The translations under genes and the position numbers were made by a program. A model generated the notes under the pieces. That model was not told the DNA's origin, did not search any database, and was given only the letters and a program-made list of their open reading frames with translations. Below are positions 6,533 to 10,594 of a stretch of 64,000 bases of DNA, in pieces. Each line of letters opens with the position of its first letter. The first letter of the stretch is position 1. The stretch is from positions 801,982 through 865,981 of the forward strand of contig NC_009976.1 in the NCBI RefSeq assembly GCF_000018585.1. Reading direction: 5' to 3'. The stretch comes from Prochlorococcus marinus str. MIT 9211 (lineage in GTDB: Bacteria > Cyanobacteriota > Cyanobacteriia > PCC-6307 > Cyanobiaceae).

Positions 6533-6898
6533 ATGGCAGCCCAAAAGCTGAGATGGCAGTGTATCAGGGCATGTGGAGCATGTTGTAGACTCGCTCCACA
6601 TGAGAGAGTTGAAGCACTTCAGGCACTTTCTAAAGAACAAACTATTCAGTATTTACGCCTAGTAGCAGATGATGGATGGTGTCGTTTTTATAACAAATCC
6701 ATGAAAACGTGCACTATTTATAATCAGAGGCCTGATTTTTGCAATGTCAAAAATCTTTTAAGTATTTTCAAATTAGATAATACTTCTATAGATACAGTTG
6801 CAATTATGTCTTGTAGGCAACATATTCGGTCCATATATGGAGGCAGGAGTCAAGTCCTAAAACGATTTGAACATACACTCAGAAGCAATTCAACATAA
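6533..6898 (+). CDS. YkgJ-type cysteine-cluster protein
   Basis: A 121-residue soluble protein of the CxxCxxxCC zinc/iron-chelating family (UPF0153/YkgJ). The N-terminal cluster C10, C14, C17, C18 (in CIRACGACC) is followed by GWCRF, CTIYNQRP and DFC, the usual order for the family. These proteins are thought to bind a metal or Fe-S cluster, and their biochemical role is unknown. It stands just upstream of two cation-transporter genes, which may hint at metal handling. Confidence 0.8.
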   Translation: MAAQKLRWQCIRACGACCRLAPHERVEALQALSKEQTIQYLRLVADDGWCRFYNKSMKTCTIYNQRPDFCNVKNLLSIFKLDNTSIDTVAIMSCRQHIRSIYGGRSQVLKRFEHTLRSNST

Positions 6899-6902
6899 GT
6901 CT

Positions 6903-7265
6903 ATGATAAAAAAATATGATTCAACTGTTTCTGAGAATGAATTAAAAGACCAATCTTCTAATAGTTTTGCAATTACCCTCTTTAGCACCTTTACAACTGT
7001 ATTTATAGCTGAGTTGGGAGATAAGACCCAAGTTGCTACGTTACTTCTTTCCGCTGAGTCAGGTAGCCCCTTAATTGTTTTTATAGGAGCTTCTCTTGCT
7101 TTAGTATTATCAAGCCTTTTTGGTGTTCTTCTTGGAAGGTATATATCAAAGCATATACCCCCTAGCCTTTTTAGTTATTTGGCTGGTTCTCTAATGACCC
7201 TTATAGGTCTCTGGTTGTTAATAGAATCCTTAGATAGTAGATTCAATATTATTAATTTCCCATGA
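6903..7265 (+). CDS. GDT1/TMEM165 (UPF0016) family transporter, first half-size gene
   Basis: A 120-residue membrane protein carrying the family signature ELGDKTQ in its first helix, followed by two more hydrophobic segments. UPF0016 proteins export Mn2+ or Ca2+. The cyanobacterial member Mnx moves Mn2+ from cytoplasm to thylakoid lumen. The usual protein carries two such repeats in one chain; here each repeat has its own gene. I start at the ATG at 6903, just after the upstream gene ends, because a start at 6867 would overlap it by 32 bases. Confidence 0.85.
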   Translation: MIKKYDSTVSENELKDQSSNSFAITLFSTFTTVFIAELGDKTQVATLLLSAESGSPLIVFIGASLALVLSSLFGVLLGRYISKHIPPSLFSYLAGSLMTLIGLWLLIESLDSRFNIINFP

Positions 7266-7555
7266 AATTACTAGACCCTATTCTTATATCTACGTTTTCG
7301 ACTATTTTGTTTGCAGAGCTTGGTGATAAAACACAACTTGCAACAGTTGCAATCAGTGGTAAAAGTGACAAACCCATAGCAGTATTTATTGGCTCTTCTA
7401 GTGCACTTGTAATAGCTTGCTTAATTGGTACCCTTGCGGGTGGGTCTATATCTACTTATATCCCATCCTATATTCTAAAATTGGTTGCAGCTATTGGTTT
7501 TTTGTACATTGGCGTAAGTCTTTTGCTTAGTGCATACAGAAGCCAAGAAACTTAG
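7262..7555 (+). CDS. GDT1/TMEM165 (UPF0016) family transporter, second half-size gene
   Basis: A 97-residue partner of the gene before it, overlapping it by four bases (ATGA), which implies translational coupling and equal amounts. It carries its own ELGDKTQ signature near residue 19 and three hydrophobic segments. Two half-size proteins would form a heterodimer equal to the fused Mnx protein of other cyanobacteria. Mn2+ export towards the lumen would fit the needs of photosystem II, but the substrate is inferred from the family. Confidence 0.85.
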   Translation: MKLLDPILISTFSTILFAELGDKTQLATVAISGKSDKPIAVFIGSSSALVIACLIGTLAGGSISTYIPSYILKLVAAIGFLYIGVSLLLSAYRSQET

Positions 7556-7681: not shown

Positions 7682-9964
7682 ATGCTCTCAGTAGCCAGAA
7701 TACTTGAATTATTACCCAGCGAAGGGAGTCTAGAAGTTAAGAAGCTTGAGAAAGCTCTTAAGCTAACTAAGAAATTAGAGAGAAATCATCTTGATATAGC
7801 CCTAAAAGCCTTATCTAAATTAGGAATTTTAAGGAAGGATACGTCAGATACTATTCAAAGAGTATTATTAGAATCAACAATTATTGGAAATGTACGCTGC
7901 AGTAGCAAGGGTTATTGCTTTGTTGTAAGAGAAGATGGCGATGATGACATCTATATAAGGGATCAACATTTAAATAATGCATGGCATGGAGACAAAGTTT
8001 TAGTAAGAATTTTAAAAGAGGGCATTAGAAGAAAGTCGCCAGAAGGTACTATTTTGTGTGTTCTTGAGAGAATTAATGAAAATGTCTTAGCATCTTTGGA
8101 TAAAACTGAGACTGGTTATTTAGCAACCCCTTTGGATGAAAGGATCCTATCCAAGGTTGAAATATCTAGTGATAAGAAAATATCAGATAACCTTATTAAT
8201 TCAGATCATATATTTAAAGTAAAAGTAAATAAATACCCAATTGCTCAATATAATGCTTTAGGTGAGATTGTTCAGACACTCAATCTTAATTCTGGAACTC
8301 AAGGAGATTTAGAAATTATTAAAGCCAAACATAATATATCTATGGAAGAAAAACCCCCTAGGGTTTCACTTAAATCCCCAGACGAAAAAAACAGAGTAGA
8401 TTTAACCTCTCAAAACTCATTATTATTAACAAGTTGGGAAAGTGATCAATCACCATTCCTCTTGTCAATATACACTGAACCTTATCATGGAGGAGCTAAG
8501 TTATGGATACATTCCCCAACGGTAGGAGAAAGAATAAATCAAGGTAATAAATTAGATGAGTGGCTATTAGCCAGATCTGAATCTATATGCCTTGGTAGTA
8601 GTTGGATCAATTTACTTCCTACTAACTTATTCAATCAATCTAAATTTGAAGTAGATAAATCTAATCATGCCATTACTCTAGAACTTGATATCGATAAAGA
8701 TGGTAATTATACCAATTGGAATTTTTACCTAAGTAAGATTAAGCCTAAGGCATTAATCACTAGAGAGCATTTAACTACTCTTAATAAGAGAAAACCTCGA
8801 TCTAGAACTATTCCCCAAAAACTTAAGTCAATTAAAGATAGTATTTCCCAATTGGAAACATTGCTATTTGCTTGCCAACTCCTAAAAAATAAATTAATAG
8901 AAGATGCATACCTTGAACTTCCTTCTAAACCTTTAGAGTCAAATAAATTAATTGATCATGATTTTGTCAATCCAGGCAATGCATATAAACCATGGCATGA
9001 TTCATTAGATGAATCGGATCCTAACTCTATAATTAATATAATCACAAGAGCAGCTAATAATATATGGAATATACACCACACTACTTTGAGAATCCCAGGT
9101 ATTTACTTGGAAGAACAACCTCTAGATCTAAATCAATATAATGAAGTAATAAAATCTGCAGTTGTTTTAAACACTAAATTAGAGTTAGACGAAGACGGGT
9201 TGATTTCATTACCAGATTTTGTTCATACCCTTTCTCATAGTAATGATCAACCTATTATCCAAAAATCTCTTAAGAATATTTTGCCTAATAAGGTATTTAA
9301 AATATTTGGACAAGAACAATCGAATGTCAGCCAATTAGAAGGTTCTTTGCAAACCAATACATATAAAGAGTCCCCATGGTGCTCCCCTTCTCTAAGCTAT
9401 TGCGATATTCTCAATCAGTTTATTCTTATTTCTCTTTTGACTGGTACAAAAGGGAATACTAAGTCACGACAAAAGGATTCTCCAAACTTTACTTCTAAAA
9501 TTAATCTTAGAGATTCAAATTTAGATGTCTTTACAGATCAAAAGTTAGCTACTATTCGCCAAAATATTAGCCAAAAGAAGATATCTCATCTAAATTCTAT
9601 TTCTAAGAGAAATTCCCAATTTAAATCTGGATTAATCTCTATTTTAGAGACTAGGGCTGTACAGGCTAAGACAGGTTCTGTTCTAAAAGGCTTAATTACG
9701 GGAGTTCAGAGCTATGGCTTTTTTGTTGAGTTGAATCCCTTTCTGGCCGAAGGACTTGTGCACGTTAGCTCTTTAGATGATGACTGGTATGAATACCGCT
9801 CTAGACAAAATATGCTTATTGGTCGAAAGAATAAACGAACCTATCAACTTGGAGATCAAGTTTTTGTAAAGGTTGTTAGCGTTGATATTCTAAAAAATCA
9901 AATTGATCTAGAAACGAGTACCAAAGATAATATTGCTGCAGATATAGACTCAGAATCCTCATAA
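7682..9964 (+). CDS. Zam/RNase R-like RNB-family protein lacking catalytic residues
   Basis: A 760-residue protein with the layout of RNase R: helical N-terminus (1-60), cold-shock-like OB region (about 62-115), RNB-like region (about 238-640) and a C-terminal S1 domain (about 672-748, GSVLKGLITGVQSYGFFVEL). The signatures that make RNB proteins 3'-5' exonucleases are gone. The aspartate cluster (normally GEDARDFDDA) is replaced by a stretch without those acids near residues 250-262, and TSPIRRY is replaced by CSPSLSY (567-573). It resembles Zam, the cyanobacterial RNB relative linked to acetazolamide resistance. It may bind RNA without cutting it. ubiX follows 27 bases later. Confidence 0.78.
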   Translation: MLSVARILELLPSEGSLEVKKLEKALKLTKKLERNHLDIALKALSKLGILRKDTSDTIQRVLLESTIIGNVRCSSKGYCFVVREDGDDDIYIRDQHLNNAWHGDKVLVRILKEGIRRKSPEGTILCVLERINENVLASLDKTETGYLATPLDERILSKVEISSDKKISDNLINSDHIFKVKVNKYPIAQYNALGEIVQTLNLNSGTQGDLEIIKAKHNISMEEKPPRVSLKSPDEKNRVDLTSQNSLLLTSWESDQSPFLLSIYTEPYHGGAKLWIHSPTVGERINQGNKLDEWLLARSESICLGSSWINLLPTNLFNQSKFEVDKSNHAITLELDIDKDGNYTNWNFYLSKIKPKALITREHLTTLNKRKPRSRTIPQKLKSIKDSISQLETLLFACQLLKNKLIEDAYLELPSKPLESNKLIDHDFVNPGNAYKPWHDSLDESDPNSIINIITRAANNIWNIHHTTLRIPGIYLEEQPLDLNQYNEVIKSAVVLNTKLELDEDGLISLPDFVHTLSHSNDQPIIQKSLKNILPNKVFKIFGQEQSNVSQLEGSLQTNTYKESPWCSPSLSYCDILNQFILISLLTGTKGNTKSRQKDSPNFTSKINLRDSNLDVFTDQKLATIRQNISQKKISHLNSISKRNSQFKSGLISILETRAVQAKTGSVLKGLITGVQSYGFFVELNPFLAEGLVHVSSLDDDWYEYRSRQNMLIGRKNKRTYQLGDQVFVKVVSVDILKNQIDLETSTKDNIAADIDSESS

Positions 9965-9991: not shown

Positions 9992-10594
9992 ATGACTAAA
10001 ATCGTTCTTGCTGTTACAGGAGCCTCGGCTCAACCTATAGCTGAAAGGTCTTTAGAACTTCTTTTAAAGAATAATCTAGAGGTTCACTTAATTTTAAGTA
10101 AGGGAGCTTATAAAGTCTGGGATGCAGAGGCAAATACAAAGATTCCTTTCGATCCAGCTAGCCAAGAGAAGTTCTGGAGGAATAGATTAAAGATAAATTC
10201 AGGTAAACTAAATTGTTATAAATGGAATGATAATTCAGCAAGTATTGCCAGCGGAAGTGTACATACTGATGGGATGATTATTGTTCCATGTACTATGGGG
10301 ACTATTGGACGAATCTCTAACGGATTTGCCTTAGACTTAATTGAAAGATGTGCGGATGTTCACTTGAAAGAACTCCGAAAACTTGTTATTTCTCCAAGGG
10401 AAAGTCCTTTCAATTTAATACATCTAAGAAACATGACTAAGTTAGCTGAGGCCGGGGCACACATAGTTCCTTGTATTCCAGCATGGTACGGATCACCTAA
10501 TTCTCTAGAGGACATGATTAACTTTCTAGTCGTTAGACTTTTTGATTCTTTTAACCTTGATCTTTTAAAGATCAAGCGGTGGAAGGATTATTAG
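9992..10594 (+). CDS. ubiX: flavin prenyltransferase UbiX
   Basis: Makes prenylated FMN, the cofactor of UbiD-type decarboxylases used in quinone synthesis. The 200-residue protein has the flavodoxin-like start VLAVTGASAQPIAERSLELL and the conserved VPCTMGTIGRISNG (about residues 89-102). It also has ADVHLKELRKLVISPRE and a C-terminal region HIVPCIPAWY, all diagnostic of UbiX/Pad1. It lies in a run from the Zam-like gene towards acsF, and the next gene starts one base after its stop. Confidence 0.95.
   Translation: MTKIVLAVTGASAQPIAERSLELLLKNNLEVHLILSKGAYKVWDAEANTKIPFDPASQEKFWRNRLKINSGKLNCYKWNDNSASIASGSVHTDGMIIVPCTMGTIGRISNGFALDLIERCADVHLKELRKLVISPRESPFNLIHLRNMTKLAEAGAHIVPCIPAWYGSPNSLEDMINFLVVRLFDSFNLDLLKIKRWKDY

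Follow-up and report, generated by a model that had tools for sequence, protein, structure and literature searches.

The Zam proteins of cyanobacteria form a clade of their own, related to RNase R, in which the RNB active site is degenerate and the OB-fold domains have been kept (Thomas et al. 2022, PMC9145284). In Synechococcus PCC 7002, cysteines C73 and C79 of the first cold-shock domain (CSD1), a pair described as invariant, are required in vivo: the cysteine mutants phenocopy the deletion, C73S is reported to inactivate the protein, and a redox-controlled interaction of Zam with RNase E was proposed (PMC9145284). CSD/S1-mediated activation of RNase E has been published for Anabaena (PMC9145284, PMC10989914); the redox-dependent in vivo function and the RNase E interaction are published for other strains only (PMC9145284). 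The purified Zam of PCC 7002 had no nuclease activity and did not bind RNA when given Rnb substrates, but the protein was aggregated (PMC9145284). Since the degenerate site was published in 2022, the headline finding described below was already known. What we add is the graded decay of the site, the maintenance of the RNB domain, the fixation of new residues in it, serine variants at C73 and a stripped-down Rnb.

The window, a stretch of 64,000 nucleotides of Prochlorococcus marinus MIT 9211 (a genome of one contig, 1,688,963 bases), contains a zam gene (Table 1). Pfam matches in its product were OB_RNB (residues 69–125), CSD2 (88–134), RNB (238–587, E = 5.5e-37) and S1 (663–745). The RNB match, at 128.2 bits against a curated cut-off of 29.3, places the protein in the RNB fold family, while the best NCBIfam model, the RNase R equivalog TIGR02063, scored 207.8 bits, below its cut-off of 597.85, so that the protein falls outside that equivalog. 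The CSD-CSD-RNB-S1 architecture combined with a degenerate site is that of the Zam pseudonucleases, and both CSD1 cysteines are present (residues 72–79, RCSSKGYC).

Table 1. Features of the zam locus, in window positions unless stated otherwise.
Feature	Position	Strand	Basis and remarks
zam ORF, 760 aa	7682..9964	+	RNase R-architecture pseudonuclease; Pfam OB_RNB, CSD2, RNB, S1
CSD1/OB_RNB domain, residues ~67–133, with C73 and C79	7880..8080	+	Conservation; Cys positions as in PCC 7002 (PMC9145284)
RNB domain, residues ~237–600, predicted catalytically dead	8390..9481	+	Pfam, alignment, AlphaFold2
Former catalytic four-aspartate loop, residues 250–262, TSWESDQSPFLLS	8429..8467	+	Alignment to D201/D207/D209/D210 of E. 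coli RNase II
C303, at the position of the RNase II clamp Y253	8588..8590	+	Alignment
Former TSPIRRY motif, residues 567–573, CSPSLSY	9380..9400	+	Alignment; family consensus CCPxLHY
S1 domain, residues ~659–747, strongly conserved	9656..9922	+	Pfam, conservation
UbiX-like flavoprotein gene, directly downstream of zam (context, separate from Zam)	9992..10594	+	Pfam Flavoprotein
Pair of half-size GDT1 (cation/proton antiporter) genes, immediately upstream of zam	6867–7552
Rnb, 427 aa	L001:1402-2694 (genome C1 ~795,040–796,330, outside the window)		Pfam: RNB alone

The protein was placed in a MAFFT alignment of 120 Zams (60 from the picocyanobacterial family and 60 others), 41 Rnbs, and RNase II and RNase R of E. 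coli. The active site of RNase II comprises D201, D207, D209, D210, R500 and Y253, and the D209N substitution alone abolishes activity (PMC3293843). In the window protein, other residues occupy the positions of all four acidic metal ligands of an active RNase II or R (D201 to T250, D207 to P258, D209 to L260 and D210 to L261), the clamp residue Y253 is replaced by C303, and R500 by L571 within CSPSLSY, which stands in place of TSPIRKY/TSPIRRY and lacks the R500 of a TSPxRRY motif. The 41 Rnb paralogs, aligned together with the Zams, served as a positive control, and every one of them retains the four acidic residues and TSP[IL]RRY. The loss is common to the 60 family members and recurs in a second, separate collection of 43 sequences, all from named contigs and including the window. 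A sequencing error or a local pseudogene could be ruled out, given the intact frame and the same state in 60/60 relatives.

The alignment bears out an earlier note on this DNA, which had reported that both RNB signature motifs are replaced; the residue numbers quoted there (250–262, and CSPSLSY at 567–573) are exact, and its interval 8399–9412 corresponds to residues 240–577, i.e., the RNB domain. The OB/cold-shock and S1 ends are indeed retained, with Pfam matches in both, and conservation within the protein is highest in CSD1 and S1. The suggestion that a nuclease gave rise to an RNA-binding protein agrees with this conservation and with the published model of Zam; RNA binding itself is something we infer, since purified PCC 7002 Zam gave none, though it was aggregated. 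A role other than degradation, which the note had also suggested, is supported by the alignment, the metal ligands being gone with no conserved acidic substitutes in the 250–262 loop. The implied peculiarity to this genome did not hold, the loss having been published family-wide (PMC9145284).

An AlphaFold2 model based on 43 sequences (mean pLDDT 85.7, pTM 0.85) returned a complete RNase R fold, and the ten-residue blocks around the former active site have pLDDT values >90. The top Foldseek matches were RNase R of B. subtilis, Mycoplasma and E. coli (for E. coli RNase R, 5xgu, target-normalised TM = 0.81), and the yeast pseudonuclease Ssd1 (7am1) was also among the matches. The scaffold is therefore predicted to be intact without the catalytic chemistry. 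An intact predicted fold would also be expected if the site had been re-formed with other residues, making Zam still an exonuclease or giving it a new hydrolytic activity. Acidic residues are conserved elsewhere in the RNB domain (D240, E266, E283, D292 and D505), and Alr1240 of Anabaena, identified as Zam (PMC9145284), is reported to be active (PMC10989914). However, the family alignment has no conserved acid in the 250–262 loop, R500 and Y253 are gone as well, and the loss of D209 is in itself enough to abolish RNase II (PMC3293843), so that we give a re-formed site hardly any credence.

The decay of the site is graded across cyanobacteria, which is new in this work. Among the 60 Zams from outside the picocyanobacterial family, there is an acid at position 209 in 97% and at position 201 in 48%, and R500 is kept in 48%. 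In the family, no member (0/60) has an acid at position 207, 209 or 210, none has R500, and position 209 is Leu in 58/60. In a tree built on the OB and S1 columns, the 60 family members formed one clade with a support of 100. The inner branching among the remaining Zams is weakly supported in this tree, and its outgroup is very long. Matches to zam were found in 67 genomes of its own class and in none from other classes of the phylum, in line with the distribution of the Zam pseudonucleases throughout photosynthetic cyanobacteria; the intact Rnb that accompanies them is present in the MIT 9211 genome. The Zams of two distant cyanobacteria (L024:1438-3831 and L026:1492-3894) retain D201, D209, D210 and TSP[LV]RRY, with the D207 position alone changed, and judging from these residues may still be nucleases. 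A divergent Zam of 691 aa (L033:764-2836) has the catalytic loop deleted and lacks both CSD1 cysteines.

These differences bear on a conflict in the literature. The Anabaena RNB protein Alr1240, which was reported to degrade unstructured RNA (PMC10989914), has been identified as Zam (PMC9145284), and its activity is at odds with the view that no Zam is a working nuclease. It could be accounted for by a partly intact site of the kind found in several other Zams. Such partly intact sites differ from the fully erased site of the picocyanobacteria.

The RNB domain of the family is less conserved than its surroundings, with a mean majority-residue frequency of 0.54–0.59, compared to 0.86 for CSD1 and 0.79 for S1. 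This would be expected if the domain were a relic in decay and only the CSD and S1 ends still had a function. However, in eight matched genome pairs, the dN/dS of the Zam RNB domain (0.067–0.238) was close to that of the RNB domain of catalytic Rnb (0.059–0.197), which argues that the domain is maintained rather than decaying; CSD1 and S1 of Zam were lower still (0–0.09). Furthermore, the full-length frame is retained in streamlined genomes, and 28 RNB positions are fixed in the family (the same residue in 95% or more of its members, in 60 genomes), 15 of which differ from the other Zams. We therefore regard a relic as very improbable. In CSD1 and S1 together, 4/68 fixed positions differ from the other Zams (Fisher p = 6e-7 for RNB versus these, a descriptive value, because the positions share one phylogeny).

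The residues E283, R284, W308, N578 and Q579 are invariant in the second set of 43 sequences as well, and K385 and K590 are further lineage-fixed residues of the domain. Position 303 is Cys in 53/60 family members and in 0/60 other Zams. At least two of the three positions corresponding to Y253, T496 and S497 (303, 567 and 568) are Cys in 46/60 family members, in 0/60 others and in 32/43 of the second set. Several Prochlorococcus sequences (e.g., L228, L230 and L238) are without these cysteines, which consequently cannot be essential to all. A further cysteine, C126, does not vary within the family. What is new here is that a seemingly dead RNB domain is still under selection, with new residues fixed, in marine picocyanobacteria. 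The former catalytic cavity might even have been remodelled as a functional site of another kind, with the cysteines at 303, 567 and 568, in a domain where E283, R284, W308 and N578 have become fixed as well. We consider this unlikely, but such a cavity might set RNA turnover, either as an additional redox or metal site or as a ligand pocket.

The newly fixed residues (E283, R284, W308, K385, N578 and K590) would also suit a protein-partner scaffold, in which Zam would serve RNase E or another degradosome protein as an allosteric cofactor, with the RNB domain as its docking surface and RNA binding no longer the main job. Activation of RNase E is published, and the Zam RNB domain is as constrained as that of the live Rnb. 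On the other hand, CSD1 is the most conserved part of the protein, and its RNA-contact loop is kept (PMC9145284). A scaffold of this kind is a possibility to be taken seriously, if not one that we favor.

The site is intact in the Rnb of the same genome (TIDDIDSAEIDDG/TSPLRRY), whose gene shares the strand of zam and precedes it by ≈14 kb (795137–796003 versus 810374). Pfam recognised no N-terminal winged-helix/HTH or S1 domain in this Rnb. The Rnb frames are 398–453 aa long in most of the small, Prochlorococcus-size genomes and ≈676–725 aa in most others, including a genome of 2.41 Mb (G184, 706 aa), and two Synechococcus-type Rnbs have N-terminal winged-helix/HTH matches, some of them just below the curated cut-off; most Synechococcus do not have the short form. 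A search of the MIT 9211 genome for the lost N-terminus found nothing, with a query that in a control detects this N-terminus only in close relatives. In these streamlined cells, the live Rnb has thus been reduced to less than its former domain set, whereas the dead Zam retains its RNA-binding ends. Cooperation between Rnb and Zam is speculation.

C73 is Ser in five genomes, among them that of Synechococcus RCC307 (L219:6001-8247), and a single genome has Ser in place of C79. A C73–C79 disulfide therefore cannot be universal. Besides L219, loci with Ser for Cys in CSD1 are L110, L126, L142, L154, L157 and L158.

The GDT1 genes adjoin zam in 78/89 loci checked, and the order GDT1-GDT1-zam is conserved within the picocyanobacterial family. 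The downstream gene we take to be ubiX-like; beyond the immediate neighbors lie a DUF2996 gene and a gene for a diiron protein that is presumably AcsF-like, the names UbiX and AcsF having been assigned by us from the sequences. In many distant cyanobacteria, too, ubiX directly follows zam, and the linkage is old. In one genome (L036:5602-5946; G123:C6:1830301-1830645), a separate frame of 177 aa, ≈3 kb from zam, includes a stretch 53% identical to the S1 domain of Zam and is possibly an S1-only duplicate.

Taken together, we think it reasonably probable that zam encodes an RNase II/R-family pseudonuclease that tunes RNA decay non-catalytically via its OB and S1 ends. An ancestral cyanobacterial enzyme of the RNase R type lost its metal site, as the sequence shows, whereas the RNB scaffold survives in Zam together with both ends, OB/cold-shock and S1. 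It would then bind RNA and/or RNase E via the CSD and S1 domains without cutting, and thereby adjust mRNA decay, including that of photosynthetic-apparatus mRNAs; the C73/C79 pair would act as a redox switch. Genetics published for PCC 7002 supports this reading. Exonuclease work would be left to the separate Rnb, and an RNase E gene is present in this genome. Counted in favor of the pseudonuclease were the loss of the site, the intact Rnb, the predicted fold, the conservation of CSD1 and S1, the dN/dS of the RNB domain and the published genetics; counted against it were the absence of RNA binding by PCC 7002 Zam, the activity of Alr1240 and the Ser variants at C73. To our knowledge, Prochlorococcus has no phycobilisomes, and the phycocyanin phenotype of Zam is therefore not directly transferable to it.

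The automatic annotation of these genes as exoribonucleases is very likely wrong. Since the site is most completely erased in the marine clade, which belongs to one of the most abundant photosynthetic lineages, a purely non-catalytic role can be tested most cleanly there. Of the results, the possible rebuilding of the site in this lineage most deserves further attention.

The closest described systems, the Zams of Synechococcus PCC 7002 and Synechocystis PCC 6803 (PMC9145284), have the same architecture, the same C73/C79 positions and a degenerate RNB site; they are likewise RNase R-like rather than Rnb-like, with a second RNB protein in the genome. The protein described here differs from them in that all four acidic positions, R500 and Y253 are replaced, and in its new lineage-fixed residues and the cysteines at 303 and 567. 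RNase R itself (E. coli Rnr, 5xgu; B. subtilis, 8cdu) is alike in domain order and fold (target-normalised TM = 0.81 and 0.71, respectively), whereas Zam lacks the catalytic aspartates and R500. The cyanobacterial Rnb (Synechocystis Sll1290, PMC3293843) shares the RNB domain with Zam but is active as an RNase II; in those picocyanobacterial Rnbs that we checked, the site is intact and the N-terminus has winged-helix/HTH matches instead of CSDs. The yeast Ssd1 and fungal Dis3L2 pseudonucleases (7am1; PMC8934651, PMC8097288) resemble Zam in combining the RNase II family fold and a lost site with cold-shock domains that are conserved; the active site has been lost repeatedly, and the function is that of a non-enzymatic RNA-binding protein. 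Their origin is independent and eukaryotic, and the abstracts mention no cysteine redox pair. Zam would be a bacterial counterpart of the fungal Ssd1 pseudonucleases, a decay enzyme turned regulator.
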